Below, piece by piece: positions 4,352 to 19,930 of a stretch of 33,326 nucleotides of DNA (its first letter is position 1; each line of letters starts with the position of its first letter). The stretch is from assembly GCA_947448135.1 (NCBI GenBank), contig CANFLZ010000024.1, forward strand, positions 1-33,326, read 5' to 3'. The DNA comes from Flavobacteriales bacterium. GTDB lineage: Bacteria; Bacteroidota; Bacteroidia; Flavobacteriales_D; Sanyastnellaceae. Position numbers and translations under genes: made by a program. The notes beneath the pieces were generated by a model. It did no database searches. It had not been told where the DNA came from and saw nothing but the letters and a program-made list of their open reading frames with translations.

Positions 4352-5766
4352 GATTGGGTTTCCTACTGATCTTTACTTTTCTATTTCAAAACATCTTCGG
4401 GCAAGTCGAAAAGCCTTTTCTTTCCGTAGAAGAAATGAAAGCCGACCTCGACTCGCTTTTGTATACCATCGCTATTGCACATCCTGACCCCACCGCGTAT
4501 TGTGGCGCAGAACAATGGAAAGCCGCACAAGCATTGGCCTACACCCAAGTGCAAAGTCCAATGACGACCGTTGGATTTTCATGGGTCGTCAGTCAGTTGT
4601 TGCGTTCCCTCAACGACAGCCACACCCAAATCAGCTACGGCGTTTTGTGGAGACAGCATTTGAAAAATGGCGGTCGCGTTTTGCCCATCCGAAAACGCGG
4701 AGATATCGTTGTGAAGGGCCCCAAAGCTGGACTCTCACCGGGAGATCAACTGATTGCCATCGAAGGTTGGTCGCTTTCTCAAATTGATGAATTGGCCTTG
4801 GCTTATACCGTTCGTGAAGGGGACAGTCCCATTTCCGAAATTAGAATGCAGGATGCTCTTTTCTCATTAACGATAGCACAATTTGTCATACAAAACAAAG
4901 ACAGCATAACCATTCAGTACCGCGATTCTCAAGGTGTACAGCATTGGCGTAAATGCAAAACAATGAACGACAAAGATTGGAAATTGTATTTGAAAGAGTT
5001 GAATCGTGAAAAAGAAGTGCCCAACTTCAAAATGGAAAATGGCATCGGTATTTTACAAATTCCATCCTTTGCTCCTGAGAAATTTGGACAACAACATCGG
5101 GTCATTCGAAGAGCCTTTCGAAAAATGCATCGCCAACAAGCGGATACTTTGGTGATCGATATTCGCAACAATGCTGGAGGGCTCAGCACTGAAGTGGAAT
5201 ATTTGTATTCCTTTTTAAGTCCCCAAGGATACAATACACCGCACAACATCATCTCCAAAGCCAGCACCATTGGGAGACAGCGCTACCGTATGCTCAACCA
5301 TCCTTTCGTTCAGAAGTTGGTTTTGTTCGCCCTCAAAAATCAGGAGAACATTTATCAGTACGTTTATTTGAGGAGTCAACCGCTCGGGGAACAGGACACC
5401 GTGTACTTTCATCAAGCCCTCATGCAAAAGAGATATCGGTTCGATGGAAAAGTAATCCTGTGGGTCAATGGCCTTTCTGCTTCTGCCTCGGTAGACTTTA
5501 CCCATGCCATCCGTTTGAACCATCGCGGAGAGATTTGGGGTGAACCCGTCATGGGAGGCATGAAAGGAACATTTGGCAACACCTCGACCTACTTGATTCC
5601 CAACTCTAAATTGATTGCCCAAATTTCAACCATTCGATACAACTATGACGCATCTTGGCTATATGATCCAGAACCCATCTCCCCAGATGTTTGGGTGGAA
5701 TGGAGCCATGATGCCATCAGAAATGGCATCGACCCGTATCGAGCTATTTTGAAAAAAAAGAAGTAA
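4348..5766 (+). CDS. Secreted S41-family (C-terminal processing) serine peptidase
   Basis: The 472-aa product begins with a signal peptide ([19 protein letters not shown]). The middle part contains a PDZ-like segment (GLSPGDQLIAIEGWSL), and the C-terminal half is an S41 core: VIDIRNNAGGLS, then GLSASASVDF, then WGEPVMGGMKGTFG. By alignment with Tsp, S379 would be the nucleophile and K406 the general base. The Lys sits two residues further along than in Tsp and the usual SASAE Glu is absent, so activity is likely but not certain. The start overlaps paaZ by 4 bp (ATGA). It is probably periplasmic or outer-membrane associated. The substrate is unknown. Confidence 0.85.
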   Translation: MRLGFLLIFTFLFQNIFGQVEKPFLSVEEMKADLDSLLYTIAIAHPDPTAYCGAEQWKAAQALAYTQVQSPMTTVGFSWVVSQLLRSLNDSHTQISYGVLWRQHLKNGGRVLPIRKRGDIVVKGPKAGLSPGDQLIAIEGWSLSQIDELALAYTVREGDSPISEIRMQDALFSLTIAQFVIQNKDSITIQYRDSQGVQHWRKCKTMNDKDWKLYLKELNREKEVPNFKMENGIGILQIPSFAPEKFGQQHRVIRRAFRKMHRQQADTLVIDIRNNAGGLSTEVEYLYSFLSPQGYNTPHNIISKASTIGRQRYRMLNHPFVQKLVLFALKNQENIYQYVYLRSQPLGEQDTVYFHQALMQKRYRFDGKVILWVNGLSASASVDFTHAIRLNHRGEIWGEPVMGGMKGTFGNTSTYLIPNSKLIAQISTIRYNYDASWLYDPEPISPDVWVEWSHDAIRNGIDPYRAILKKKK

Positions 5767-5778
5767 CTTGCGCACGTC

Positions 5779-6645
5779 ATGAAAAAATTGATTTTTACTT
5801 TTCTATTTGTTATTCCTATCCTCTGCTTCTCTCAAAAAGCGACCATCAGTTCACCTATTTTGCCCAAAGGAGAATTGTTGTCAGGAATCAGCAGTGATCA
5901 AGCGGTTGCATTATTAAACAACTGGTCTATCGACACATTGATCGTCAAAAATTTAAAATGGGACCAGAAAGTCATCGATACGGTTGAGACTCTTTTGAGT
6001 AGAATCACGGATACACCGACCATTTTATCAACCCATAAAAAATTAATTTCATTTTACAGCTTTCACAAAAAAGCAGATTTGGTAGAGCGATCTGAGCGGG
6101 TAATTCAGCAAATTCGATTGGCGGAGATTGAGGAGAATGGAAAGAAGATGGAAATCCGGAATGATTCGTTGAAAAGAAAAATCATGGAAATGCAATCCAA
6201 AGATGCCTTCAATCAAGAGCTGATTGGTCAATCAAAAGGCGAACAAGAATTGTGGTTCTTTGTAACTTTAGTGGTTGCTGGTTTGTTGATACTCATGGTC
6301 ATTTTGTATTTTTTAAAAGGAGGCAAGGCCGAAAAAGAAATTGTCTACCGTGAGAAGAAAGTTGTTGTTCATGAGCCAGCGCCAACGCCAGTATCAGATG
6401 GTCAAGCCGAGGAATTACAAGCTCGCGTTCTAGAGCTCGAGAAATTGTACAAAACAAGTCTTCAAACCATACAATTGCAAGACGGAGAAAAAATTGAGCG
6501 CAATGCACAAGTGGCTGAAGTGATTCAATTTTTACGAGAGGCTCAAGGCGACTTGAAGAAGATACAAGAGAACAAAACCATGACTGCTGAGGACTTCATG
6601 CGATTGAGCAACGCGGTGCAGCGCAGTATTTCAAAATTGAGTTAA
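5779..6645 (+). CDS. Membrane-anchored coiled-coil protein of unknown function
   Basis: The 288-aa product is not from a family I recognise. It starts with a signal peptide (MKKLIFTFLFVIPILCFSQ). A periplasmic region of about 135 residues ends in a charged helix, one transmembrane helix follows at about 159-179 (LWFFVTLVVAGLLILMVILY), and then a cytoplasmic part rich in Lys/Glu with a heptad-like coiled coil (AEELQARVLELEKLY). The topology suggests a structural or sensing role across the inner membrane. It starts 12 bp after the S41 peptidase gene and is followed 1 bp later by the aminotransferase gene, so all are likely in one operon. Confidence 0.75.
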   Translation: MKKLIFTFLFVIPILCFSQKATISSPILPKGELLSGISSDQAVALLNNWSIDTLIVKNLKWDQKVIDTVETLLSRITDTPTILSTHKKLISFYSFHKKADLVERSERVIQQIRLAEIEENGKKMEIRNDSLKRKIMEMQSKDAFNQELIGQSKGEQELWFFVTLVVAGLLILMVILYFLKGGKAEKEIVYREKKVVVHEPAPTPVSDGQAEELQARVLELEKLYKTSLQTIQLQDGEKIERNAQVAEVIQFLREAQGDLKKIQENKTMTAEDFMRLSNAVQRSISKLS

Positions 6646-6646
6646 G

Positions 6647-7771
6647 ATGAAAGGGATTCAAATGGTTGACTTAAAAGGTCAATACCACAAAATAAAATCG
6701 GAAGTAGACAAAGCCATTTTGGATGTCATCGAGCAGACCGCATTTATCCAAGGTCCACAAGTGAAGCAGTTTTCAGATGCTTTGCAAAATCACTTGGGGG
6801 TCAAACATGTAATTCCTTGCGCCAATGGTACCGATGCCCTGCAAATAGCCATGATGGCGTTGGATCTGCAACCAGGCGATGAGGTAATCACCACCAGTTA
6901 CACCTATGTTGCGACCTGCGAAGTCATCGCACTTTTGCAATTGGTTCCCGTTTTCATCGAGGTATTACCGGACACCTTCACCATGGATCCTTCCGCCATT
7001 GAGGCTGCTATAACAGAAAAAACAAAAGCGATAGTGCCCGTGCATTTGTATGGACAATGCGCCGATATGGAAGAAATATTGGCTGTTGCCAAAAAGCACA
7101 ATCTTTTTGTTATCGAGGATACTGCGCAAGCCATCGGTGCAGAATACACTTTTTCAGATGGCACCAAAGGTCAAGCAGGCTGCATGGGACATATCGGAAC
7201 GACCAGTTTCTTCCCTTCAAAAAATTTGGGATGCTACGGTGACGGCGGTGCCATGTTTACCAACGATGATGCCTTGGCTGAACAATTAAGAATGGTCGCC
7301 AACCATGGACAAAAGGTAAAGTACCACCACGACATTGTCGGCGTTAACTCGCGTTTGGACACGATTCAAGCAGCTGTTTTGTTGTGTAAACTACCCCATC
7401 TCAACGAATACAGTGACGCAAGACGTGCAGTAGCAGACGCCTATGATCAGGCTTTTGCACAACATCCTCATTTAAAAATTCCCGTCAGAAATTCAAAAAG
7501 CACACACGTTTTTCATCAATACACCTTGACCTGTCAAGGTATCGATCGTGATGCTTTGCAAAAATTCTTGCAGGAAAAAGGAGTTCCGACGATGATCTAC
7601 TATCCGCTTCCTGTCCACAAACAAGCGGGTTATCGCAATGCTAAATTTGCTCCCGGATCATTGGCCAATTCAGAAAACCTTTGCCAGAATGTGATCTCCT
7701 TGCCGATCCATACCGAGATGACCGAAGAGGTTTTGCAATACATCATCCAATCGGTCCTTTCTTTTTTTTAG
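6647..7771 (+). CDS. DegT/DnrJ/EryC1/StrS PLP-dependent sugar aminotransferase
   Basis: The 374-aa product is a full-length member of the DegT/DnrJ/EryC1/StrS family. The segment IQMVDLKGQYHKIK is a typical N-terminus. CANGTDALQIAM binds the cofactor phosphate, and SFFPSKNLGCYGDGGA holds the PLP-binding lysine K192. VPVHLYGQ and VIEDTAQAIGA are also family signatures. These enzymes transfer an amino group to a keto-sugar nucleotide for surface polysaccharide synthesis; the pattern is closest to WbpE/WlbC-type 3-aminotransferases, though the exact sugar cannot be read. No other sugar-nucleotide gene is adjacent. Confidence 0.92.
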   Translation: MKGIQMVDLKGQYHKIKSEVDKAILDVIEQTAFIQGPQVKQFSDALQNHLGVKHVIPCANGTDALQIAMMALDLQPGDEVITTSYTYVATCEVIALLQLVPVFIEVLPDTFTMDPSAIEAAITEKTKAIVPVHLYGQCADMEEILAVAKKHNLFVIEDTAQAIGAEYTFSDGTKGQAGCMGHIGTTSFFPSKNLGCYGDGGAMFTNDDALAEQLRMVANHGQKVKYHHDIVGVNSRLDTIQAAVLLCKLPHLNEYSDARRAVADAYDQAFAQHPHLKIPVRNSKSTHVFHQYTLTCQGIDRDALQKFLQEKGVPTMIYYPLPVHKQAGYRNAKFAPGSLANSENLCQNVISLPIHTEMTEEVLQYIIQSVLSFF

Positions 7772-7789
7772 AACAAGTTTTCAACTAGG

Positions 7790-7820
7790 TTGGTGTACAA
7801 ATGACACTTTATTATATTTG
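7790..7820 (+). promoter_or_regulatory. Promoter of the glucan-utilisation operon
   Basis: TTGG at 7790-7793, a 19-bp spacer and TATATTTG at 7813-7820 form a near-ideal Bacteroidota promoter. It ends 22 nt before the GH13 ATG at 7843 and lies in the only sizeable gap upstream of the five-gene operon. Confidence 0.8.
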
Positions 7821-7842
7821 TCATCTAACCTAATTGAAATCT

Positions 7843-10722
7843 ATGAAGTCTTTGCGCATTTTTGCCATCATTGCTTGCATGTTCTCCATCTCTGCACAAT
7901 CGCAGATTTTGACGACTTCTCCAGCGTTTCCAACCCAGACCGATCAAATCACGATTTATTACAACACCACCAGTGGAAATGCCGCATTGACCGGTTTGAC
8001 GCCGATTTATGCGCACACCGGATGCATCACCAATAATTCTACTGGTCCCAACGACTGGCAGCATGTAGTGGGCAACTGGGGAGTAGCCGACCCCAATGTG
8101 GTGATGACTCCTATGGGAAACAATGTCCACAAAATTGTGATCACTCCGCAAACCTTTTATAATCTCGGTGCCGGTGAAACGATCTCTCAATTGAAATTTG
8201 TTTTCCGCAACCAGAGTGGTAGCATTGTCGGTCGCAACGCCGATGGGTCGGATATTTATTTGGATCTTTATTCGGCGGGATTCAATGCCGCATTGCAAAC
8301 TCCAACTGCCATCAGTTCGATTGTGTCAGCGGGTAGCAACAATGTTGTCACAGGCGTTTCATCGCAAACTGCAGATTTGAATATCTCCGTGAATGGAACT
8401 TCGGTGATGACCGCCAATGCCGCAACCACGATTAGCTATACTTTCAATGAAAGCACTCCTGGAGAATATGAAGTTATTTTCAGCGCCCTATCAGGCACAC
8501 AAAGTATTGCCGACACTTGCTACTTCTTGATTTTACCCGCTGTCAATATTGCATCAGCACCTGCGGGTGTGATTGACGGTATCAATTACATCAATAACAA
8601 CACTGTCATTCTTCAATTATTCGCTCCCGACAAAGACTATGTATTTGTGGTTGGAGATTTCAATGGATGGAACCTTGACTTGAATTACTTCATGAACAAG
8701 ACGCCCGACAATCAACGCTATTGGTTGGAAATTTCTGGTCTACAGCCCCATGTAGAATATGGATTTCAATACCACATCGATGCAGAAGGTTTGAGAGTGG
8801 CAGACGTTTATGCCGATAAAATTTTGGATCAATGGAATGACCCCTGGATTCCAGCAACGACATATCCCAACATCAAACCTTATCCGTATGGCCTAACAAC
8901 AGAACCTGTTTCTGTTCTGGAAATCAATCAAGCTGCATTCAACTGGACCGATCAAAGCTATATCCGACCCAATGCGGCGAAGCTTGTTGTTTATGAGCTT
9001 TTGGTCCGCGACTTTGCTGCAGCCAACAATTATAATACGCTAATCGACACACTGGACTATTTGCAAAACTTGGGTATCACGGCCATTGAATTGATGCCGA
9101 TCAATGAATTCGAAGGGAACAATAGCTGGGGTTACAATCCATCATTCTATTTCGCGCCTGACAAGGCTTATGGAACAGAGGAAGCATTAAAGACTTTTAT
9201 CAATGAAGCACATTTGCGCGGTATTGCTGTGATTGCAGACATCGCATTGAACCACAGCTTTGGCCAAAGCCCTATGGTTCGCATGTACTTTGATCCAACT
9301 GCAGGAACTTATGGTCAACCCACTGCCAACAATCCCTGGTTTAACCAAACACCCAAACACGACTTCAATGTCGGATACGATTTCAATCACGAAAGTGTTC
9401 ATACACGCAATTTCTGTAAAAGAGTCATGGGATATTGGTTGACAGAATACCACATTGATGGATATCGATTTGACCTTTCCAAAGGTTTCACACAAAACTA
9501 TACTTTGGGCAATGTGGCTGCCTGGAGTGCTTATGACCAAAGCCGCGTCAACATTTTGACCGATTATTACAACCATATCCAAACTACGGAACCCGGTGCT
9601 TATGTTATACTGGAGCATTTGGCAGACAATTCAGAGGAAACAGCATTGAGCAATATTGGTATGATGCCTTGGGGAAAAATGACCACGCAATATGAGGAAG
9701 CATCCATGGGATATTCAGGAGACATTAACTGGTGCTCTTACCAAGCTCGTGGTTGGTCACAACCTCGTTTGGTGGGTTATGCTGAATCACATGATGAAGA
9801 ACGTGTGATGTTTAAAAACTTGACCTATGGCAACAGCAATGGCAGTTACAATGTGCAAGATTTGAATACTGCTTTGAAAAGAATGGAAGCAACGCATGCT
9901 TTGTTATTGTTGGTTCCAGGTCCAAAAATGATGTGGCAATTTGGGGAGCTTGGCTATGATTATACGATTGAATATTGTCAAGATGGAACGACCAATAGCA
10001 ATTGTAAAACAGACCCCAAACCTGTGCGATGGGATTATTATCAAAACGCCAATCGTTTGCATTTGTACAAAGTCACAGCCGCATTGAACAAACTGAAAAA
10101 AGATTACCAAACTTTCAGTACATCCACCTATACATTGGATGGAAGCGGAAAAGGAAAACGGTTGATTTTAGATGGCTCGACCATGGATGCGGTTGTGGTT
10201 GGCAATTTCGATGTTATCGGCATGAACATGATTCCAGGCTTCACACACACCGGTACTTGGTACGACTACTTCACTGGAAATCCCGTTGAAGTTTCGAGTA
10301 CCAGTGCCTCTTTTAGCTTCATGGCTGGAGAATATCATGTATACACCGATCAACCATTGCCACTGCCCGACCTTATTGCTTGCGCTACTTACGGACAACC
10401 TTGTGATGACGGAAATCCCAATACCAGCAACGATGTTTATGATGAAACTTGCACTTGTGCAGGTACAGTTGGAATGGACGAGTACAATGCAAGCATGATT
10501 CAAGTTTATCCGAATCCGTCGAATGGCAATTGGACAATCAACATTCCGCAAAATTCAACGCTTCCAACCATTCAAGTATACAGCGTTCAAGGTCAATTGC
10601 TCTTTAGCACAAAACAATTGCACGCCACTGTGCCTGCAGAAAACTGGGCTTCTGGATTGTACATTTTACAAATCAGCAGTGAAAATGGCGTAAAGCAAAC
10701 CATTCCATTGATCAAAAATTAA
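7843..10722 (+). CDS. Secreted GH13 alpha-amylase-family enzyme with T9SS sorting domain
   Basis: The 959-aa product starts at ATG 7843 (MKSLRIFAIIACMFSISAQS, a signal peptide); an in-frame TTG nine bases earlier is less likely. Residues about 22-150 form a beta-rich module, residues about 240-330 an early-set/CBM48-like domain (VVGDFNGW), and about 365-790 the GH13 barrel. All four GH13 regions are seen: D466 in ADIALNH, nucleophile D544 in GYRFDLSK, acid/base E591 in ILEHLADN, and H650-D651 in ESHDEE. A Cys-rich linker leads to a type IX secretion sorting domain from about residue 885 (VYPNPSNGNW). It should cut alpha-glucan at the cell surface or outside, feeding the SusC/SusD genes downstream. 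Amylase versus pullulanase activity cannot be decided. Confidence 0.95.
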   Translation: MKSLRIFAIIACMFSISAQSQILTTSPAFPTQTDQITIYYNTTSGNAALTGLTPIYAHTGCITNNSTGPNDWQHVVGNWGVADPNVVMTPMGNNVHKIVITPQTFYNLGAGETISQLKFVFRNQSGSIVGRNADGSDIYLDLYSAGFNAALQTPTAISSIVSAGSNNVVTGVSSQTADLNISVNGTSVMTANAATTISYTFNESTPGEYEVIFSALSGTQSIADTCYFLILPAVNIASAPAGVIDGINYINNNTVILQLFAPDKDYVFVVGDFNGWNLDLNYFMNKTPDNQRYWLEISGLQPHVEYGFQYHIDAEGLRVADVYADKILDQWNDPWIPATTYPNIKPYPYGLTTEPVSVLEINQAAFNWTDQSYIRPNAAKLVVYELLVRDFAAANNYNTLIDTLDYLQNLGITAIELMPINEFEGNNSWGYNPSFYFAPDKAYGTEEALKTFINEAHLRGIAVIADIALNHSFGQSPMVRMYFDPTAGTYGQPTANNPWFNQTPKHDFNVGYDFNHESVHTRNFCKRVMGYWLTEYHIDGYRFDLSKGFTQNYTLGNVAAWSAYDQSRVNILTDYYNHIQTTEPGAYVILEHLADNSEETALSNIGMMPWGKMTTQYEEASMGYSGDINWCSYQARGWSQPRLVGYAESHDEERVMFKNLTYGNSNGSYNVQDLNTALKRMEATHALLLLVPGPKMMWQFGELGYDYTIEYCQDGTTNSNCKTDPKPVRWDYYQNANRLHLYKVTAALNKLKKDYQTFSTSTYTLDGSGKGKRLILDGSTMDAVVVGNFDVIGMNMIPGFTHTGTWYDYFTGNPVEVSSTSASFSFMAGEYHVYTDQPLPLPDLIACATYGQPCDDGNPNTSNDVYDETCTCAGTVGMDEYNASMIQVYPNPSNGNWTINIPQNSTLPTIQVYSVQGQLLFSTKQLHATVPAENWASGLYILQISSENGVKQTIPLIKN

Positions 10723-10753
10723 TCGAAACTTAAACCTAAACAATACCTATAAC

Positions 10754-13700
10754 ATGTTCAAAGTCAAAAGTTGCTTCTTCCTGATCATGACACTCATGGC
10801 CACACAGATGTGGTCTCAGAGTATCTCAGGGACAGTAAGAGATGAAAAAAACGCGCCTTTGCCAGGCGTGATTATTTCGGTCAACGCTCTAGGCAAGGGT
10901 GTTCCTGCAGATGTCAATGGAAAGTACAATTTGGTATTGCCTGTAGGAACTCACAAAGTAACCTTTTCATATGTTGGATACACCACTTATGAAACAACGG
11001 TTACCTTGATGGCCGGTCAAAATCTTCCATTGGATGCCAAGATGATTAGCGATGAGGTTACACTCGGAAATCTAGAAATTGTTGGTTACGGTGTTGAGCG
11101 CAACAAACCCAACACAGGGTCTGTAGCCAAGATCAACGGAAAGGATGTCACTGCTGTTAGAACGCCATCTTTTGAAGCAGCCCTTCAAGGACAAGCCGCG
11201 GGTTTGCAGATTTCACAAGGTTCCGGAATGGCTGGCGCAGGCTCGATTGTTCGTGTTCGCGGCGTGAGTTCAATCTCCGCTGGCGGCGATCCCCTGTACA
11301 TCGTGGATGGTATTCCCATCACCAATGATTACTTCCTACGCGGTAACAGTGGCGCCATGAACAACAACCCCTTGGCAACCATCAACCCACAAGATATTGA
11401 AAGTGTTGAAGTTCGTAAAGACGCCGCCGCTGCGGGTGAATACGGTTCTCGTGCTGCCAATGGTGTCATCATCATCACAACGAAAAAAGCCCGTCAAAAA
11501 GGTTGGAAATTTGATTTTAATGTCAACACGGGATTGGCCACTCCGGCCTCTCTGCCCAACATGTTAAACACCGAGCAATATTTGCACATTCGCCAAGAGG
11601 CTTGGGAAAACGATGGCGGAACGGGTTACGTTTGGTTGCCCAACTTGACCAGTGCGACTGATGATGCCGCTACAAGAGAAGCCGCTTACAAAAAAGCAAT
11701 GGGTACCAACACGGATTGGGTCAAACAAACCGTTGGAACAGGCACCAAGTACGGCGCTCAATTTGGCGCTCGTTACGGTGGTGAAAAGCACAAAGTATAT
11801 TTCTCTTTGGGTTATGACAACAACGAATCATTCATGATCGGCAATGCATACAAACGTTTGAGTGTGCGCGTGAATCCAGAATTCAACATTAGTAAAAAAC
11901 TCCGCGTGGATTTATCGCTTTCGGGAACTAGAGGAACCAACCAACGTGTTGACGCCGCTTGGTCGGGTGGATTAGGTGATGCGATGTCCAATGCATTGCC
12001 CTACTACCCTGTCACTTACCAAGATTACAATTACGACGCTGCAGGAAATGTCCTCAACAAGCCCGGTGATTATTTCTATTGGAAAGATGAATTTGGTGGA
12101 ACTAAAAATCCAGTGGCCATGCGCAACTTGCGTCGTTGGGCCAATGTTGAAAGTAGATTGATCAACACCGCGCGGATGATCTATACACCCATGAAGAATT
12201 TGTATGTGATTGCAACGGGAGGTATGGATTACATGTATATCGGAGAAAACAAATTGAATCCCGCTGCTTTGGATCAAACCAATTCATTGGGTTCTTACAA
12301 CAGTGATCAACGCATTGTCCGAAATTACAGCTACAACGTGACTGCCGAATACAGCAAAGAAATTGTAGAGCATTTGAAAGCCAACATCTTGGTGGGACAT
12401 GAGCTACAAACCAGCAGCTCAACAGGCTATGGTGATTACATCGGGAACTTGGGACAAGACATTCAAAATTTAAGTGACGTCAATACCAATGCAACCAACC
12501 GCGTACGTAAAGCCTACAACAATGAGCAATTCACTTTCATTGGTGTATTTGCCAAAGGAAGCTTGAATTACAAAGGCAAATATTTCATGGATGCGAGCTT
12601 CCGTAGAGATGGATCTTCTCGATTTGGAGCCAACAATAAATTCGGTAACTTCCCTTCTGTATCTGCAGCATGGATCGCTTCAGAGGAACGCTTTCTAAAA
12701 GACAACAAAACCATCAGCTTCTTAAAGATTCGTGGAAGCTGGGGAATCACGGGTAATTCGAGCATTCCTGCAAATGCCCAATACTCTTTGTATTCTGCAG
12801 TCAACAATGGTGTTTATTACAACCAACAACCGATCATCTTTCCTACACAACGTGGTAACTCCAACTTGAAATGGGAAACTACTTCTAACGCATCTTTCGC
12901 CATTGAAACTGGACTTTGGAACGACCGTGTTAGCTTTACCATTGAGGGTTACAGAAAATTCAGCAAAGACGTCTTGATGAATGTGAGCCTTCCTGCTTCA
13001 ACTGGTTTCTCTAGCTTCTGGGACAATGTTGCGCAAGTGAAAAACCAAGGAATCGAATTGTCTACAACCATCAATTGGTTGAAGAACCGCAAATTGGCTT
13101 GGAAAACAAATGCCAACTTCTCTTACAACTACAACGAGTTGGTGAGTATCGGAAACTACACGCCAGATGCTGTAAGCGGTGGAACCAATGACTCTCGTGT
13201 CATCGTCGGCAAACCGATTGGATCATTCTATTTGGTGGAATTCTCTCACATCGATCCCAACAATGGTAAGCCTGTTTACATTGATTTGAATGGAAAAGAA
13301 ACGTATGACTACGACAACAGCATCCGCAAATTCGTAGGAAGTGGATTGCCCAAAATGTATGGTGGTTTCACCAACTCTTGGTCTTGGAAGAACTTCACAC
13401 TATCAGCTCTATGCACGTATAGCTTGGGTTCTAAAATTTTCGACTCTTCAGCAAAACGCCAATTGGGTGTTGTAACGAGCTGGAACATGAGAACCGACAT
13501 CTTGGATCGTTGGCAACAGCCTGGTGATCAAAGCACATACGGCAAACTTACTTTGGACGAAACCAATTATGGATTACCCGCAGGTTTCCCTTGGTGGAAT
13601 ACTTCATTGTTCATCTACAACGCCGACTTCTTGCGCTTGCGCAACTTGTCTTTGGATTATCAATTCAATCAAGATCAAATCAAATTCTTGAAACTTTCGT

Positions 13701-13879
13701 CTTTGAATGTGGGTGTCTATGTCACCAATGTATTCACCATCACCAATTTCCCAGGATTGGATCCCGAAATTGTGCGTGACTTCGAAAATGCCCAAGACAG
13801 AAACTTGAGCCCCAACGTAACTTACTTAACCCCGATGCAAGAGCGTAGCTACAACTTGCGTTTGTCGGCTAACTTCTAA
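10754..13879 (+). CDS. susC: SusC/RagA-family TonB-linked outer-membrane transporter
   Basis: The 1041-aa product has a signal peptide (to about residue 22), a carboxypeptidase-regulatory-like domain (SGTVRDEKNAPLPGVIISV), a TonB plug with the SusC signature GGDPLYIVDGIPI near residue 180, and a long beta-barrel ending in aromatic F (NLRLSANF). SusC proteins import oligosaccharides across the outer membrane using TonB energy, capped by a SusD lipoprotein. It follows the GH13 gene by 31 bp and precedes susD by 11 bp. There is no STN domain, so it is not an anti-sigma-coupled transducer type. Confidence 0.97.
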   Translation: MFKVKSCFFLIMTLMATQMWSQSISGTVRDEKNAPLPGVIISVNALGKGVPADVNGKYNLVLPVGTHKVTFSYVGYTTYETTVTLMAGQNLPLDAKMISDEVTLGNLEIVGYGVERNKPNTGSVAKINGKDVTAVRTPSFEAALQGQAAGLQISQGSGMAGAGSIVRVRGVSSISAGGDPLYIVDGIPITNDYFLRGNSGAMNNNPLATINPQDIESVEVRKDAAAAGEYGSRAANGVIIITTKKARQKGWKFDFNVNTGLATPASLPNMLNTEQYLHIRQEAWENDGGTGYVWLPNLTSATDDAATREAAYKKAMGTNTDWVKQTVGTGTKYGAQFGARYGGEKHKVYFSLGYDNNESFMIGNAYKRLSVRVNPEFNISKKLRVDLSLSGTRGTNQRVDAAWSGGLGDAMSNALPYYPVTYQDYNYDAAGNVLNKPGDYFYWKDEFGGTKNPVAMRNLRRWANVESRLINTARMIYTPMKNLYVIATGGMDYMYIGENKLNPAALDQTNSLGSYNSDQRIVRNYSYNVTAEYSKEIVEHLKANILVGHELQTSSSTGYGDYIGNLGQDIQNLSDVNTNATNRVRKAYNNEQFTFIGVFAKGSLNYKGKYFMDASFRRDGSSRFGANNKFGNFPSVSAAWIASEERFLKDNKTISFLKIRGSWGITGNSSIPANAQYSLYSAVNNGVYYNQQPIIFPTQRGNSNLKWETTSNASFAIETGLWNDRVSFTIEGYRKFSKDVLMNVSLPASTGFSSFWDNVAQVKNQGIELSTTINWLKNRKLAWKTNANFSYNYNELVSIGNYTPDAVSGGTNDSRVIVGKPIGSFYLVEFSHIDPNNGKPVYIDLNGKETYDYDNSIRKFVGSGLPKMYGGFTNSWSWKNFTLSALCTYSLGSKIFDSSAKRQLGVVTSWNMRTDILDRWQQPGDQSTYGKLTLDETNYGLPAGFPWWNTSLFIYNADFLRLRNLSLDYQFNQDQIKFLKLSSLNVGVYVTNVFTITNFPGLDPEIVRDFENAQDRNLSPNVTYLTPMQERSYNLRLSANF

Positions 13880-13890
13880 TCGAAACAGAC

Positions 13891-15303
13891 ATGAAAAAAT
13901 ATATTCTCATCTCGATTTCAATTCTCACAATTGGCCTTGTGTCTTGTGATAAAATGTTGAACTATCAACCCGATGGCGCTATTCTCGCTGAAGATGCATT
14001 GAAAACGCCAGATGATGCTCAACGCCTTTTGAATTCATGTTATGATGTGATGGCCAACGTCTTTGACGGAAGCTATCAAAATCTTGCCGAATTATTGAGC
14101 AACAACTTGGCCACTCCAACTGGACTCGATTTTCAAGCGGTGTACAACAAAGAAACCAACTTCTTTACGCCGACTACCAATGGTGTTTATTCTGACTTCT
14201 ATTACAGCATCTACCGCTGTAACTCCTTGTTGGAAAACTTTGACTTGATCGAAGGATTGTCAGAATCTGAAAGAACACGCATGGAAGCTGAGGCTCGCTT
14301 CATTCGCGCTTATTGCCATTGGCACGTTGTCAAACTTTGGGCACAACCATGGGGATATACACCCAACAACACGCATTTGGGAATTGTCATTCGTGACAAA
14401 GCGAGTAATGCGCCTTTGCACCGAAATACAGTTGCCGAAGTGTATTCGTTTATTCTCAGCGAGTTGGCGTGGGCTGCTGACAATCTTCCCGAATCCAATG
14501 GCAACTACGCCAATGCCAATGCGGCAAAAGGTGCTTTGGCCATGATTCATTTCCAAATGGGCAATTATTCACAAGCCATTCAATATTGTGATGATGTCAT
14601 CAATCCAAGCCAATTTGCAGATACTTTGCTCGATCGCTTCCCCGCCGATGTTGTCAATATGGTGGCATTGCCCAACCCAGAAACAGTGTTTGGAATTGTG
14701 AGCAACAATGCGGACGTTAGAACAGATGATTTGATCGGCAATTACAACGCCTCAGGTGTTTTGCCTCCCAATTTGACCTTGTGGAATGACGCTACTTATT
14801 CGTCTTCCAACGAATTGGAAAACCCATTCTTTCAATTCATCAATGTTACAGGAACAGACAAACGTTTGTCTTGGATCGGAACAAATGGTTCGAGAAAAAC
14901 ATTGAATCGCTTTTTAGACAAAGTGGTTTTCAATGTTCCGCTTATTTATCAAACAGAATTGATATTGATTCGAGCAGAGGCCATTGCCTATGCCCAACCT
15001 GGAAGATTGAATGAAGCGATTGCAGACATCAACAAAGTTCGCACACGCGCTTATTCGCAAGACAACAGCATCTCAACCAGCAGCAGTGTCGATGAAGTGA
15101 AAATCTCTGCCAGAAGGGAATACAGAATCGAAACGATTGGAGAAGGGAAATGGTTGGATCAATTCCGCCGCTTGGCCACTGAAGGTGTTGTCAACAATAT
15201 CCGCTACTCTCCTTGGGATTGCCCAGGAATGGCCATTCAATTCCCCAACAACGAAACAACTGGAGCAGGATTCCAATTGAATCCTGAAGGAGGTTGCAAT
15301 TAA
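13891..15303 (+). CDS. susD: SusD/RagB-family glycan-binding surface lipoprotein
   Basis: The 470-aa product has a lipoprotein signal with Cys19 (TIGLVSCDK), followed by the typical SusD start (LNYQPDGAIL..DAL.TPDDAQRLLN). The TPR-like helices (RFIRAYCHWHVVKLWAQPWG) and the C-terminal family segment AIADINKVRTRA then RREYRIETIGEGKWLDQFRR are clear. SusD proteins cap SusC and bind the substrate glycan at the cell surface. Its position directly after susC makes the pair. The length is slightly short for the family but all signature parts are present. Confidence 0.96.
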   Translation: MKKYILISISILTIGLVSCDKMLNYQPDGAILAEDALKTPDDAQRLLNSCYDVMANVFDGSYQNLAELLSNNLATPTGLDFQAVYNKETNFFTPTTNGVYSDFYYSIYRCNSLLENFDLIEGLSESERTRMEAEARFIRAYCHWHVVKLWAQPWGYTPNNTHLGIVIRDKASNAPLHRNTVAEVYSFILSELAWAADNLPESNGNYANANAAKGALAMIHFQMGNYSQAIQYCDDVINPSQFADTLLDRFPADVVNMVALPNPETVFGIVSNNADVRTDDLIGNYNASGVLPPNLTLWNDATYSSSNELENPFFQFINVTGTDKRLSWIGTNGSRKTLNRFLDKVVFNVPLIYQTELILIRAEAIAYAQPGRLNEAIADINKVRTRAYSQDNSISTSSSVDEVKISARREYRIETIGEGKWLDQFRRLATEGVVNNIRYSPWDCPGMAIQFPNNETTGAGFQLNPEGGCN

Positions 15304-15332
15304 TGTTTGACGTAAAGTACAAAATGATCAAA

Positions 15333-15815
15333 ATGAAAAAATATATTTTCCTCTTTGCAACAGTTGCAATGGTAACCATCGGTTGTAAACCTGAAGTAAA
15401 AGGTGAATTGGGAAGCACTTCCAACAAAGAAGTTGGAATGAGCGGCACATGGGAGTTGCAGCACTTCACCATCCAAGATCCCAATAGTCCTATCCTTGAG
15501 CAACGTGATTTCACCAGCTACTACGTGAAAGATGGAATCACACCCATGCATTTGGATTTGGAGGCTGCGAATCATACTTATGCTGTCACCATCAACACGG
15601 GCAAGAATTTCTTAGGTGATTCAGGAACTTGGCATTTGGACGATGTGATGGCGCCATCCTTCCTATACCTAGAAAATGCAACGGACACCATCACCATTTC
15701 ATTGGGAAGTATGGTCAATGCCAATTCAGATGAAATGAATTTGAACATTGAGAAAACTTGCACCAGTGGTTTTAAAAACGTGATTTACAAATTCAACTTT
15801 AATCGCCTACCATAA
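15333..15815 (+). CDS. Small lipocalin-like lipoprotein of the glucan operon
   Basis: The 160-aa product starts at MKKYIFLFATVAMVTIGCKP, a lipoprotein signal with a Cys at residue 18; this start gives a normal signal length, while upstream in-frame starts (15324 and earlier) do not. The mature part is beta-rich with GTWELQHFTI near the start and a DSGTWHLDD segment, resembling the lipocalin-like DUF5004-type lipoproteins found in Sus-like loci. It occupies the place of SusE in comparable operons and may bind glucan at the surface, but no binding residues can be identified. The next gene starts on the last base of its stop codon. Confidence 0.7.
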   Translation: MKKYIFLFATVAMVTIGCKPEVKGELGSTSNKEVGMSGTWELQHFTIQDPNSPILEQRDFTSYYVKDGITPMHLDLEAANHTYAVTINTGKNFLGDSGTWHLDDVMAPSFLYLENATDTITISLGSMVNANSDEMNLNIEKTCTSGFKNVIYKFNFNRLP

Positions 15816-16642
15816 TGAAAAGAATATTCGCAATTGCCATTGTAGCATTGACCGCCCTTTCATCTTGGGGACAAGGAGCATTTGTTTTGCCCTCGCCTAC
15901 CAATGCCAATGATTCCATGACGATCTACATTGATCTCAGCCAAACCACCTATGGTTTGAAAGGAATATTAACCAACCACCCAGAATACAAAGATTCCGTT
16001 TACATGTGGACATGGGCACCTGCCGGTCCTGCTTGTGGCAACGGGGATTGGGGAAATTCGAATGCTTGCATGCGCATGACGCACGTCAGCGGTATGATCT
16101 TTTCGATTAAAATGATTCCTACTCAATTCTATTCCTGTACCCCATTGCAATTGTATTCCAATGGAATCAACTGCTTGGCCAAATTGGATGATGGTAATGC
16201 CTTTGCTTCCGATGGCTTGGGCGAAGCCAAAACCGAGGACTTGCACATTGACATCTTGCCTGCATTGTGTGCAGACAAATTTTGTTTCTTCCCTGAAGTG
16301 GCCAAGAAGGACGATTTCTTCACCATTACGTATGACAACGGCGAAGAGACCAATACCAATCTACAAAACCTTGGACCCGATGATTGCTACTTGTACATGT
16401 CCGCAAAAGCGGGAATCAATCAGTTCCCCATTTCAGCTCCAGCAGATGTCACCAGCAATCCTTTATTGAAAATGGAAGCTGTATCTGGTGAGCCCGGAAA
16501 ATTCAGACTGACCATCATCCCTGAAGAATTCTTCAACACCAATGGCGCCAATATTCAAGAAGTATGGTTCTATGTGGTTTCACCCACCTATTTGCCTGCT
16601 CCTCCTACAGTGATGAAATATGTTCTTTTGAACTGTAACTAA
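15815..16642 (+). CDS. Secreted two-module protein sharing a domain with the GH13 enzyme
   Basis: The 275-aa product has a signal peptide (MKRIFAIAIVALTALSSWGQ) and two similar beta-rich modules, about residues 21-150 and 155-275. Each has a D-x(0-1)-hydrophobic-T-I start (NDSMTIYID; DDFFTITYD) and an I-P-x-x-F-[YF] near its end (MIPTQFYS; IIPEEFFN). The N-terminal module of the GH13 protein in the same operon has the same plan (TDQITIYYN; ITPQTFYN), so I infer a common glucan-binding or scaffold module. No catalytic motif and no T9SS tail are seen. It is the last gene of the operon and is followed by a strong terminator. Confidence 0.7.
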   Translation: MKRIFAIAIVALTALSSWGQGAFVLPSPTNANDSMTIYIDLSQTTYGLKGILTNHPEYKDSVYMWTWAPAGPACGNGDWGNSNACMRMTHVSGMIFSIKMIPTQFYSCTPLQLYSNGINCLAKLDDGNAFASDGLGEAKTEDLHIDILPALCADKFCFFPEVAKKDDFFTITYDNGEETNTNLQNLGPDDCYLYMSAKAGINQFPISAPADVTSNPLLKMEAVSGEPGKFRLTIIPEEFFNTNGANIQEVWFYVVSPTYLPAPPTVMKYVLLNCN

Positions 16643-16687: not shown

Positions 16688-16715
16688 GTTTGGACATGGC
16701 CTTTGGTTATATTTG
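16685..16715 (+). promoter_or_regulatory. Promoter of the POT transporter genes
   Basis: TTTG at 16685-16688, a 19-bp spacer and TATATTTG at 16708-16715 fit the Bacteroidota consensus. The -33 box uses the T-tract of the preceding terminator. The ATG follows 17 bases after the -7 element. Confidence 0.78.
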
Positions 16716-16732
16716 GAGAAACTAATAAATCT

Positions 16733-18448
16733 ATGTCGGCTAATCAACAACAAGGACATCCCAAGGGATTGTGGTATTTATTCGGAACCGAAATGTGGGA
16801 ACGATTTGGGTATTATTTGATGCTCGGTATTTTCTCCCTTTATATGATCGAGAATTGGAACAGTGGCGGTATGGGGTTTTCTCCCACGCAAAAGTCTGAT
16901 ATCTACGGCACTTATTTGGGCTTGGTTTATTTGACTCCCTTCATCGGTGGGTTATTGGCGGATAGAATTTTGGGATATCGCCGCTCCATTATCATGGGTG
17001 GTTTGATGATGTCGGCGGGTTACTTCTGCTTGTCGATTCATTCGGTCACTTCTTTCTACGTTGCCTTGTTCTTGATCATTTTGGGAAATGGTTTTTTCAA
17101 ACCCAACATTTCTACATTGGTTGGAAATTTATACAGCACCGATGAATTAAAGCACAAGAAAGATGCGGGTTACAACATCTTCTACATGGGGATCAACATC
17201 GGCGCTTTCATTTGCAACTTCGTTGCGGCTTATATGCGCATCAACTACGGTTGGGGACATGCCTTTGCTGCTGCCGGAGTGGGTATGTTGGTCGGTGTCG
17301 TTGTTTTCATTTTGGGAACCAAGCACATCAAACATGTCGATGTTGTGAAGCCGGTTCAACAAGGTGACATGACTACGGGTCGTATCCTCGCCATGACTGT
17401 GCTACCCATGTTCATCTTTGGTATTTTGGGGTATATGATTCCTGGTAATTTCTTGGGTTCTGATACCAACGATGCCTTCATCATTGGTTGTTTGCCCGTC
17501 ATTGGTTTCTTCATTTACTTGGCCTTCAAATCTGAGGCTTCAGAAGCCCGCGCCATCAAAGCGTTGTTGGCTGTATTCACTTGCGTAATTTTATTCTTTG
17601 CGATCTTCCACCAAAATGGAGATGCTTTAACGGTTTGGGCTGAGGACCACACCGACCGCAAAATGTCAGATGGCGTCGCAGCAGTGGCGCAAGACATGAA
17701 CATGGCACAAGTGGTGATCAACAATGATATCGTTTCTGCACCGCAAGAAAAATTTGACTCTACCATTACAGAATTGCGCAAGCAAGAGTCTGCAATGCCG
17801 GATGTATCGGTAGAAGAGCACAAAGCAAAAGTTGACTTTTCAGACAAAGTGACCCAATTGGAAAAATCCAGAAAGTACTTTGAAACGCTTCCTGCATCTG
17901 AAGTTCCAGCCAAAGGAAGCGACATGAAATTGTACAGCACAGAGTTGTATCAAAGTATCAATCCTTTCTGGGTCGTGATGTTGACTCCTGTTGTGGTGGG
18001 ATTCTTTGGATGGATGGCCAGTCGCAAACGCGAGCCATCAACACCAACAAAAATTGCCATCGGTTTGATCATCACCGCCTTGTCTGCATTGGTGATGGTA
18101 GGCGCAGTAGCTGCTACCAATGGACTATCAGCCAAGGCCGGTTCATTTTGGTTGATTGCCTCTTACGGTGTTATCACTGTGGGTGAGCTTTGCTTGTCGC
18201 CAATGGGATTGAGCTTGGTTTCCAAGCTTTCTCCTCCTCGTATCACAGCGTTGATGATGGGTGGATTTTTCTTGGCCATCTCCGTTGGAAACAAACTTTC
18301 TGGAATGCTTTCCAGTCTTTGGGAAGAAATGGATGACAAAAAGAACTTCTTCTACTTGAACTTTGCGCTGGTATTGGCCGCCGCCATTTGCTTGATGATG
18401 ATGTTGAAGTGGTTGAATAGTGTCATGCGCGAGAAAAACATTTTGTAA
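16733..18448 (+). CDS. POT/PTR-family proton-dependent oligopeptide transporter (first)
   Basis: The 571-aa product starts at MSANQQQGHPKGLWYLFGTE; an upstream in-frame TTG is ignored because it overlaps the promoter. The ExxER proton-coupling motif of POT transporters is present in TEMWERFGYY (TM1), and GNGFFKPNISTLVG is the PTR2 signature. About 12-14 hydrophobic helices are visible. A charged loop of about 110 residues (roughly residues 305-410) splits the two halves, longer than in E. coli DtpA. It should import di- and tripeptides with protons across the inner membrane. It is followed 3 bp later by a paralogue. Confidence 0.93.
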   Translation: MSANQQQGHPKGLWYLFGTEMWERFGYYLMLGIFSLYMIENWNSGGMGFSPTQKSDIYGTYLGLVYLTPFIGGLLADRILGYRRSIIMGGLMMSAGYFCLSIHSVTSFYVALFLIILGNGFFKPNISTLVGNLYSTDELKHKKDAGYNIFYMGINIGAFICNFVAAYMRINYGWGHAFAAAGVGMLVGVVVFILGTKHIKHVDVVKPVQQGDMTTGRILAMTVLPMFIFGILGYMIPGNFLGSDTNDAFIIGCLPVIGFFIYLAFKSEASEARAIKALLAVFTCVILFFAIFHQNGDALTVWAEDHTDRKMSDGVAAVAQDMNMAQVVINNDIVSAPQEKFDSTITELRKQESAMPDVSVEEHKAKVDFSDKVTQLEKSRKYFETLPASEVPAKGSDMKLYSTELYQSINPFWVVMLTPVVVGFFGWMASRKREPSTPTKIAIGLIITALSALVMVGAVAATNGLSAKAGSFWLIASYGVITVGELCLSPMGLSLVSKLSPPRITALMMGGFFLAISVGNKLSGMLSSLWEEMDDKKNFFYLNFALVLAAAICLMMMLKWLNSVMREKNIL

Positions 18449-18451
18449 TTG

Positions 18452-19930
18452 ATGGAAACAACAATCGAACAGATTCAGAATTTCAAAGGCAAATACCCCA
18501 AGCAATTGTGGTATTTGTTTTTTTCTGAAATGTGGGAGCGCTTTAGCTTCTATGGCATGCGCGGCATGCTGACTTATTTCATGATCAATGTATTGGTCAT
18601 GAATGAAGGGGATGCCAACCTACAATATGGCGCAACACAAGCCTTTGTATATGCTTTCACTTTCATCGGTGGCATGTTTGCCGATAAAATTTTAGGATTC
18701 AGAAAATCACTCTTTTGGGGTGGCATTTTGATGATCATTGGAAGTGTCATCTTGGCCATCGATCCCAAGAATTTTTTCTTCATCGGGATATCGTTCAATA
18801 TCATCGGAACAGGATTTTTTAAACCCAACATTTCTACCATGGTCGGGCGATTGTACAAAGACAACGATGATCGAAGAGACAGCGGATTTTCTTTGTTCTA
18901 CAGTGGTATCAATATCGGTGCTTTGATCGGAGGGTATGTTTGCATTGCCTTGGGAAAATCTTATTCTTGGAATATCGCATTTGGCTTGGCGGCCATTGTA
19001 ATGACCATCTCTTTGTTGACTTTCCTGTTCACGCAAAAAAGCCTGGGTCCAATCGGTCTTTCTCCATTGGCCAATGATGAGAAAAGTGTTCGTCAACGAA
19101 AAGAATGGATGGTTTTCATTGGTTCATTGATTTGCATTCCAATCATCAGCATCATGGTCAAAAAGACGGAGTACACCGATTATTTCATGTACAGCATCGG
19201 TCCCTTGACCCTCGTTTACTTTTTAATCGAAACTTTGAAGCTCAACAAATCCGAGCAAAACAAGATGTGGGCCGCCTTGGTGTTCATCCTGTTCTCCATT
19301 CTATTCTGGGCCTTCTTTGAGCAAAGCGGTGGCTCCTTATCCATCTTTGCCGCCAATCACTTGGGTACAGAATTGTTGGGTTTCATCACGGTTGATCCCA
19401 ATGGGGTGAACAATGCCGCCAACTCGCTTTTCGTCATTGCTTTTGCGCCAATATTGGGAATTATTTGGGTCGCTTTAAGCAAGCGCAAGTCAGAACCCAA
19501 CACCATGGTGAAGTTCTCATTGGGATTCTTCTTTTTGGGAGCGGCGTTTTTGACTTTGTATGCTACCATTTTTGTGGCGGATGAAAATGGAATGACCTCA
19601 TTAGACGTATTCACTTTGGCCTATTTCATCATGACTTTGGGTGAACTTTGCTTATCCCCCATTGGTTTATCCATCATGACCAAACTCTCCCCTACCCATT
19701 TGCAAGGAATGATGATGGGAATGTGGTTCTTGGCCAGCGCTTATGGCCAATATGTGGCGGGCTTGCTCGGCAAAGGCATGAGCCTTCCCGATGAGCATGC
19801 AACTAAAATTGAAAAATTAACCTCCTATACCAACGGATACTATCAATTGGCCATCATTGCCGTGATTTGCGGCGCGCTATTGTTGATTTTCTCCAAACAG
19901 GTTAAAAAATTAATGCAAGATGTTAAGTAA
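18452..19930 (+). CDS. POT/PTR-family proton-dependent oligopeptide transporter (second)
   Basis: The 492-aa product starts at ATG 18452 (METTIEQIQNFKGKYPKQLW), three bases after an in-frame TTG. It has ExxER in SEMWERFSFYG, the PTR2 signature GTGFFKPNISTMVGRLY, and YSGINIGALIGGY, with 12 or more hydrophobic helices and no long central loop. It is a tandem paralogue of the gene before it and likely shares its promoter. Different substrate preferences of the two are plausible but not visible in sequence. Confidence 0.93.
   Translation: METTIEQIQNFKGKYPKQLWYLFFSEMWERFSFYGMRGMLTYFMINVLVMNEGDANLQYGATQAFVYAFTFIGGMFADKILGFRKSLFWGGILMIIGSVILAIDPKNFFFIGISFNIIGTGFFKPNISTMVGRLYKDNDDRRDSGFSLFYSGINIGALIGGYVCIALGKSYSWNIAFGLAAIVMTISLLTFLFTQKSLGPIGLSPLANDEKSVRQRKEWMVFIGSLICIPIISIMVKKTEYTDYFMYSIGPLTLVYFLIETLKLNKSEQNKMWAALVFILFSILFWAFFEQSGGSLSIFAANHLGTELLGFITVDPNGVNNAANSLFVIAFAPILGIIWVALSKRKSEPNTMVKFSLGFFFLGAAFLTLYATIFVADENGMTSLDVFTLAYFIMTLGELCLSPIGLSIMTKLSPTHLQGMMMGMWFLASAYGQYVAGLLGKGMSLPDEHATKIEKLTSYTNGYYQLAIIAVICGALLLIFSKQVKKLMQDVK

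Follow-up and report, generated by a model that had tools for sequence, protein, structure and literature searches.

The DNA studied here, which we call the window, is a stretch of 33,326 nucleotides from a Flavobacteriales bacterium (GenBank assembly GCA_947448135.1, contig CANFLZ010000024.1, positions 1 to 33,326 of the forward strand). It holds what is probably an alpha-glucan utilisation operon: genes for a GH13 alpha-amylase, a SusC-like transporter, a SusD-like lipoprotein, a lipocalin-like lipoprotein and a secreted protein of 275 amino acids (aa) follow one another in this order, with short gaps or an overlap at the junctions. Our subject is three beta modules of this operon, one (N1) on the N-terminal side of the amylase and two (Nh and Ch) that form the N- and C-terminal halves of the 275-aa protein. 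An earlier note, made from the sequence alone, had suggested that one domain was copied within the operon and serves as a glucan-binding module both tethered to the enzyme and alone. We find that N1, Nh and Ch are homologous, and hence that one module family occurs in the enzyme and in its partner protein. The features of the operon are the following.

7834..10722, + strand: GH13 alpha-amylase, 962 aa (Pfam PF00128, PF16328 and PF18962); translation more likely begins at the ATG at 7843
7903..8283, + strand: module N1, enzyme-tethered beta module of the CBM98-like / DUF4961 C-terminal type (Pfam, profile, predicted fold)
8578..8805, + strand: CBM48-like module of the GH13 enzyme (PF02922 at 21.9 bits, just below the cut-off of 22.4)
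10504..10692, + strand: type IX secretion sorting domain of the GH13 enzyme (PF18962, E 1.1e-9; TIGR04183, E 2e-12)
10754..13879, + strand: SusC-like TonB-dependent transporter (PF07715, PF13715, PF00593)
13891..15303, + strand: SusD-like lipoprotein (PF14322, E 4e-18; SusD homologues in PDB)
15333..15815, + strand: lipocalin-like lipoprotein, fourth gene of the operon, mature start CKPE (PF13648 below cut-off, E 0.094; reading frame open from 15294)
15815..16642, + strand: 275-aa secreted protein with two tandem modules; one base is shared between its start and the stop of the preceding gene
15872..16264, + strand: module Nh, N-terminal half of the 275-aa protein, CBM98-like fold (profile, predicted fold, conserved residues)
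16265..16639, + strand: module Ch, C-terminal half of the 275-aa protein, DUF4961 C-terminal type (Pfam, profile, 275-aa model, conserved residues)

From N to C terminus, the amylase consists of N1, a stretch that looks immunoglobulin-like (Ig-like) by eye, the CBM48-like module, the GH13 domain and a tail for type IX secretion, and SprA_N of that secretion system is found in the genome. The segments GYRFD, VILEH and SHDEE, at residues 543, 591 and 652, presumably correspond to catalytic segments, which they resemble. The closest solved relatives of the enzyme body are 8xx9 (E 7e-170), which we take to be the Rhodothermus marinus enzyme, and BoGH13ASus of Bacteroides ovatus (8dge, E 2e-97). 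Both the B. ovatus and the R. marinus enzymes are assigned to subfamily GH13_47 (PMC11239784), and the window enzyme may be placed there as well, by its nearest solved relatives rather than by a subfamily model. The alpha-amylase profile matches seven more stretches elsewhere in the genome, spread over five other frames. The SusD-like protein matches the starch SusD model NF033071 at E 5.6e-13, yet with a score far under the cut-off of that model. Of 67 open reading frames (ORFs) homologous to the lipocalin-like lipoprotein, 62 have CK[PEDSA] within their first 120 residues. For neither this lipoprotein nor the 275-aa protein does NCBIfam return a family at E <= 1.

Relationship of the three modules

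When the modules were compared as single sequences, local alignment scores were equalled by shuffled sequences 4 times in 1000 for N1 and Nh, 4 in 1000 for Nh and Ch, and 109 in 1000 for N1 and Ch. Because such comparison was too weak for the last of these pairs, we replaced it with profiles built from relatives of each module. The hhalign E-values were 1e-7 (Nh and Ch), 1.2e-7 (Nh and N1) and 1.7e-7 (Ch and N1). Scores for the three pairs (46.5–47.6) lay far above the means of column-shuffled profiles (∼12–13; top shuffle 24.9), no shuffle out of 100 per pair matched the real score, and reversed profiles scored near the shuffle means. Pfam provides a second line of evidence: the family DUF4961 (PF16328) matches N1 (E 3.4e-9, 36.7 bits) and Ch (E 5.9e-7, 29.4 bits), in both cases above its curated cut-off of 27.1 bits. 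These data bear out the suggestion of a beta module common to the enzyme and both halves of the 275-aa protein.

The DUF4961 matches are confined to the C-terminal third of the profile, covering positions 181–281 (GH13 enzyme) and 188–274 (275-aa protein) of 283. The first 180 positions are unmatched, and in their place the 275-aa protein has Nh. N1 and Ch are the sole DUF4961 matches at E <= 1 in the genome of the window (2.5 Mb, 96% complete). Proteins that match the full length of DUF4961 occur in other genomes. One (locus L101) follows a SusD-like ORF, so judged by eye, and a lipoprotein-sized ORF; another (L102) follows a lipoprotein-sized ORF.

The earlier note had been guided by a motif at the start and end of each module. 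The sites are where it had placed them (DQITI...TPQTFY in N1, DSMTI...IPTQFY in Nh, DFFTI...IPEEFF in Ch), with start-to-end spacings of 67, 68 and 68 residues, except that Ch ends in F and not Y. Among 20,000 letter shuffles per module, the motif pair arose 1, 0 and 0 times for N1, Nh and Ch, respectively. We also scanned 2011 ORFs of at least 90 aa from the window and 69 related loci. With Y or F allowed at the end, the pair was found in 10 of these ORFs, namely five GH13 enzymes, five proteins of the 275-aa type and no others. As a signature of the family the motif is ruled out, being kept in only 5/51 GH13 and 5/69 275-aa-type ORFs. The motif thus marks the relation inside this window, but the family conserves something else.

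Fold and candidate sugar-binding site

The module family is of a known, CBM98-like kind, whose known member binds alpha-glucan. Searched against the PDB, a profile of 40 N1 modules found a single match at E up to 1, BoGH13ASus (E 4.9e-5). The predicted model of N1 (pLDDT 93.8) superimposes on the N-terminal module of this enzyme with a VIA-align Z of 14.5 (114 residues, 2.1 Å), compared to 7.1 for the next entry, and in Foldseek all 12 matches of the model at E <= 0.001 are BoGH13ASus chains. The 275-aa protein was modelled as a whole (pLDDT 92.6), and its first half, Nh, matches the same module with a Z of 10.3 (109 residues, 2.7 Å), the next entry scoring 6.3. Thus, the structure predictions that the earlier note had called for place N1 and Nh on one solved module. 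CBM25, CBM41 and the glycogen-binding domains of AMPK were considered as the kind to which N1 belongs and were rejected, as their Z values (5.6–6.5) lie inside the background.

In BoGH13ASus (PDB 8DGE/8DL1/8DL2), CBM98 is likewise N-terminal on a GH13 amylase and precedes CBM48. Identity between the modules is 18–19%. The window enzyme differs from BoGH13ASus by the additional Ig-like stretch between N1 and the CBM48-like module and by its type IX tail, and the window encodes two further members of the module family in a separate protein. CBM98 is listed among the starch-binding families (PMC10647339). In BoSusG (that is, BoGH13ASus), maltooligosaccharides are bound by CBM98 and not by CBM48 (PMC11633381).

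This last point, that a beta module of such an amylase can be devoid of binding, favors another explanation, in which N1, Nh and Ch are generic Ig-like structural domains without sugar binding and the likeness to CBM98 is that of one common beta sandwich to another. Also in its favor, many Ig-like chains align with both models at Z values of about 5–7, and antibody chains rank next to BoGH13ASus when the 275-aa model is searched with Foldseek. We consider this explanation unlikely, given that in VIA-align BoGH13ASus leads the next entry by ∼7 (N1) and ∼4 (Nh) Z units, and that N1 finds BoGH13ASus by sequence as well, a homologous enzyme on which the matching module has the same position.

For Ch, the tie to CBM98-type modules appears to run through sequence. 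Structural matches that cover only residues 134–256 of the 275-aa model are mostly Ig-like chains (Z 4.8–6.2). The link between the 275-aa protein and BoGH13ASus, as far as sequence goes, likewise seems to pass only through N1. With the GH13 N-terminal stretch and the 275-aa protein as queries, phmmer found nothing significant in the PDB.

Which residues could contact sugar? Three positions of N1, W82, R125 and D140, are kept in 35, 36 and 37 of 37 N1 rows, and the same positions are W, K and D in every free Nh row (13 of 13) as well as in L100, whose module is enzyme-borne. By contrast, the 13 Ch rows have W in none, R or K in none, and D in one. Across 65 homologues of the 275-aa protein (alignment A3, which leaves out L089 since its start is missing), Nh residues W65, W67, W79, K123 and D142 are each present in 65/65. 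It is doubtful that the 275-aa protein binds glucan with both of its halves, as the earlier note had envisaged, since Ch has lost positions that N1 and Nh conserve. N1 and Nh are predicted to bind, and Ch would not do so in the same way. The 275-aa protein also has near-invariant cysteines at positions 120, 152, 157 and 274 (62, 64, 64 and 64 of 65 rows), a pattern that suggests disulfides.

Descent and distribution of the modules

To trace the modules, we built trees from module stretches. The first had 69 rows, comprising 68 of 240 stretches, selected by locus for taxonomic breadth, plus the module from B. ovatus. The second, with 84 rows, took in 12 of 22 new GH13-borne modules and 3 of 6 new free proteins and left out L101 and L102 (long branches) and L124 (a near copy); module ends were set by eye. 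In the 84-row tree, the Ch modules form a clade with support of 100/100 and the Nh modules one with 96/81. Away from N1, Nh further joins modules found in other families of the class, some GH13-borne and some free (97/90). The window N1 adjoins N1 modules of other species and is 86% identical to one of them. Long branches are flagged for L156_freeC, L098_Ch and Bo_CBM98. In the 84-row tree, the AU tests and the enzyme-body tree described below, L157 is labelled Nh-type, although the N1 profile fits it better (6.8e-16 versus 1.3e-6); it is basal to the Nh-type group (86/93).

The presence of three homologous modules in one operon is what makes copying inside it attractive, in either direction between the enzyme and the last gene, with all copies binding glucan. 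However, AU tests reject a clade of Nh and the local N1 (p-AU 0.00867) as well as one of Nh, Ch and the local N1 (p-AU 0.00356). Moreover, the window N1, so close to the N1 of another species, is only distantly similar to Nh and Ch, and Ch is without the conserved W and R/K expected if every copy binds. We therefore regard such copying as very improbable. Each of the three modules groups with its counterparts in other species, and the idea that the domain was copied within the operon is not sustained. A single clade of all enzyme-borne modules is also rejected (p-AU 0.000248), whereas a clade of Nh and Ch is not (p 0.0801). Since the groupings with N1 are rejected and this one is not, the 275-aa protein may have arisen by tandem copying of one half into the other, and N1 as their recent source is not supported.

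The notion of a module used both tethered and alone fares better when taken from the operon to the wider family, in that the nearest relatives of Nh are GH13-borne and free modules elsewhere; as a product of recent copying in this operon it finds no support. In a tree of enzyme bodies (45 of 47 bodies kept; L106 and L109 were not found over 250 residues), 12 of 13 enzymes with modules labelled Nh-type fall together (93/76) and L158 lies elsewhere. A single event is thus insufficient to account for all of these enzymes.

We then surveyed 296 Bacteroidota genomes. A DUF4961 match at E <= 1e-4 was seen in 44 of them, representing 34 of 140 genera. Among the 48 matches listed, 38 involve only the C-terminal part of the profile, in frames of 881–1304 aa; two of the 48 come from the genome of the window itself, one of these being among the 38. 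Our own profiles detected an N1-, Nh- or Ch-type module in 25 of 28 loci (L101–L128), and in the remaining three (L103, L105 and L125) the match is to the N-terminal part of DUF4961. The Nh profile has matches in 40/296 genomes, some of which are weak cross-matches to N1-type modules. In the 28 loci L131–L158, the module is of Nh type on a GH13 body in 21, GH13-borne and nearer to N1 in one (L157), and part of a free protein in six.

Several individual cases were noted along the way. In L118 (2007–3296, − strand), a locus from another family, an ORF of 429 aa lies next to an N1-carrying GH13 gene. It has two N1-like modules, making it another free tandem, and a match to the type IX tail under the cut-off. 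Free ORFs of 360–367 aa in L139, L140, L142, L143 and L145 (family f17) combine an Nh-type module with a second, weakly similar one. Four of these five genomes (G279, G231, G084 and G263) show another Nh match, within a frame of 957–972 aa.

Proposed roles, location and operon context

As a single account, we think it likely that the operon in the window serves a Flavobacteriales-type bacterium in alpha-glucan utilisation, that its secreted GH13 amylase and 275-aa protein carry three members of one CBM98-type module family, and that the three module types diverged before the species carrying the operon did. N1 would hold starch- or glycogen-like chains beside the amylase active site. Nh would hold chains of the same type in a stand-alone protein, raising the local glucan concentration near SusC/SusD, and Ch, its sugar-binding residues lost, would serve as a structural or docking module. 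Free and tethered forms of the Nh type would have been exchanged over time, and not through recent copying of N1 in this operon. The combination of one enzyme-tethered and two free members is a variant arrangement whose parts stem from different lineages and probably differ in competence.

A number of observations weigh against this account. Ch lacks a PDB match of its own, the sequence profile of the 275-aa protein does not find BoGH13ASus in the PDB at E <= 1, and the pTM of the 275-aa model is 0.60. Foldseek, given that whole model, fails to separate CBM98 from antibody chains: among 51 matches at E <= 0.001, the best is 8dl2 (BoGH13ASus) at 1.9e-5, with an antibody chain at 3.1e-5 and TM scores of about 0.3. 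The conserved residue set is only a guess at the site, being derived from conservation and not from the contacts between CBM98 and its sugar. The B. ovatus module segment carries the W and the R, and the D position falls outside it; W75, kept in N1 (37/37) and in the B. ovatus module, is missing from Nh, which has W65 and W67 of its own. With about 126 columns for 84 rows and with long branches, the trees set a limit on all that is said here of descent, and N1 is not one clade in them. Apart from the hypothesis of the earlier note, the groups submitted to the AU test were fixed after the first tree had been seen, and the clade of Nh and Ch withstood that test.

The location of the 275-aa protein poses a further difficulty. 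By eye it has a signal peptide, and the window protein shows neither a lipobox nor a match to the type IX tail, so it may be periplasmic rather than exposed at the surface. Among 65 homologues whose start is complete, counting that of the window, 55 have no lipobox-like motif before the module; the other 10 carry a Cys within the signal stretch, ahead of a mature start of the Q type. The full-length DUF4961 proteins of L101 and L102 have, by eye, a Cys in that place. These data speak for a periplasmic maltodextrin-binding protein that receives chains after import through SusC, in place of a surface glycan-binding protein. On the other side, some of the 10 Cys-bearing homologues could be lipoproteins, and SusD or the preceding lipoprotein may hold the 275-aa protein outside. 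In addition, SusE and SusF, which have tandem binding modules, are surface lipoproteins where they occupy this position in other operons. We judge a periplasmic protein to be a serious possibility, if the less probable one.

The likeness to SusE/SusF is one of position: the 275-aa gene, too, lies 3' of susC and susD in an alpha-glucan operon, with one lipoprotein gene between. SusE-like proteins are reported from marine alpha-glucan loci (PMC11093988). The 275-aa protein differs from SusE/SusF in having no lipobox, and it has no significant sequence match to any solved chain. SusE and SusF are absent among the matches listed for its sequence, profile and model, which is uninformative either way.

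Going beyond the window, we tentatively propose that CBM98/DUF4961-type modules constitute an exchangeable set that is widespread in the Bacteroidota, moving between the amylases and the stand-alone proteins of alpha-glucan operons. In the stand-alone proteins, one module would keep binding and its tandem partner would act as a docking domain or spacer, with no lipid anchor. If this is true, DUF4961, or at any rate its C-terminal domain, is glycan-binding. Our literature search found no mention of DUF4961 or PF16328. The C-terminal part of an unnamed Pfam domain is hereby tied to a module of known maltooligosaccharide binding, and a testable role is given to the gene that closes this operon, which many Flavobacteriales genomes conserve. 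More generally, the findings suggest that a binding module can have a tangled and old history in its enzyme-borne and free forms, despite their residing in one operon.

Scanning genome contigs with the 275-aa profile yielded 69 loci. Their titles name Bacteroidota, mostly metagenome-assembled genomes of Flavobacteriales, apart from L062, titled only 'bacterium'. In the 42 stretches with >7.5 kb upstream of the 275-aa gene (window included), the order GH13, SusC, SusD, lipoprotein, 275-aa protein is kept in 41, a figure that speaks to the faithfulness of this company and not to the frequency of the operon, because the loci were found via the 275-aa protein. The sole exception is L096 of Cryomorpha ignava, where bshC lies upstream and ABC-transporter genes lie downstream. 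Here the SusC–SusD–lipoprotein–275-aa-type set (4874–10825) has no GH13 match in the 20 kb covered. Both this locus and the way in which the loci were gathered count against the account given above.

On the 3' side of the operon in the window, at 16703–19930, there are two adjacent ORFs of 581 and 493 aa, which are similar to each other and transporter-like by eye.

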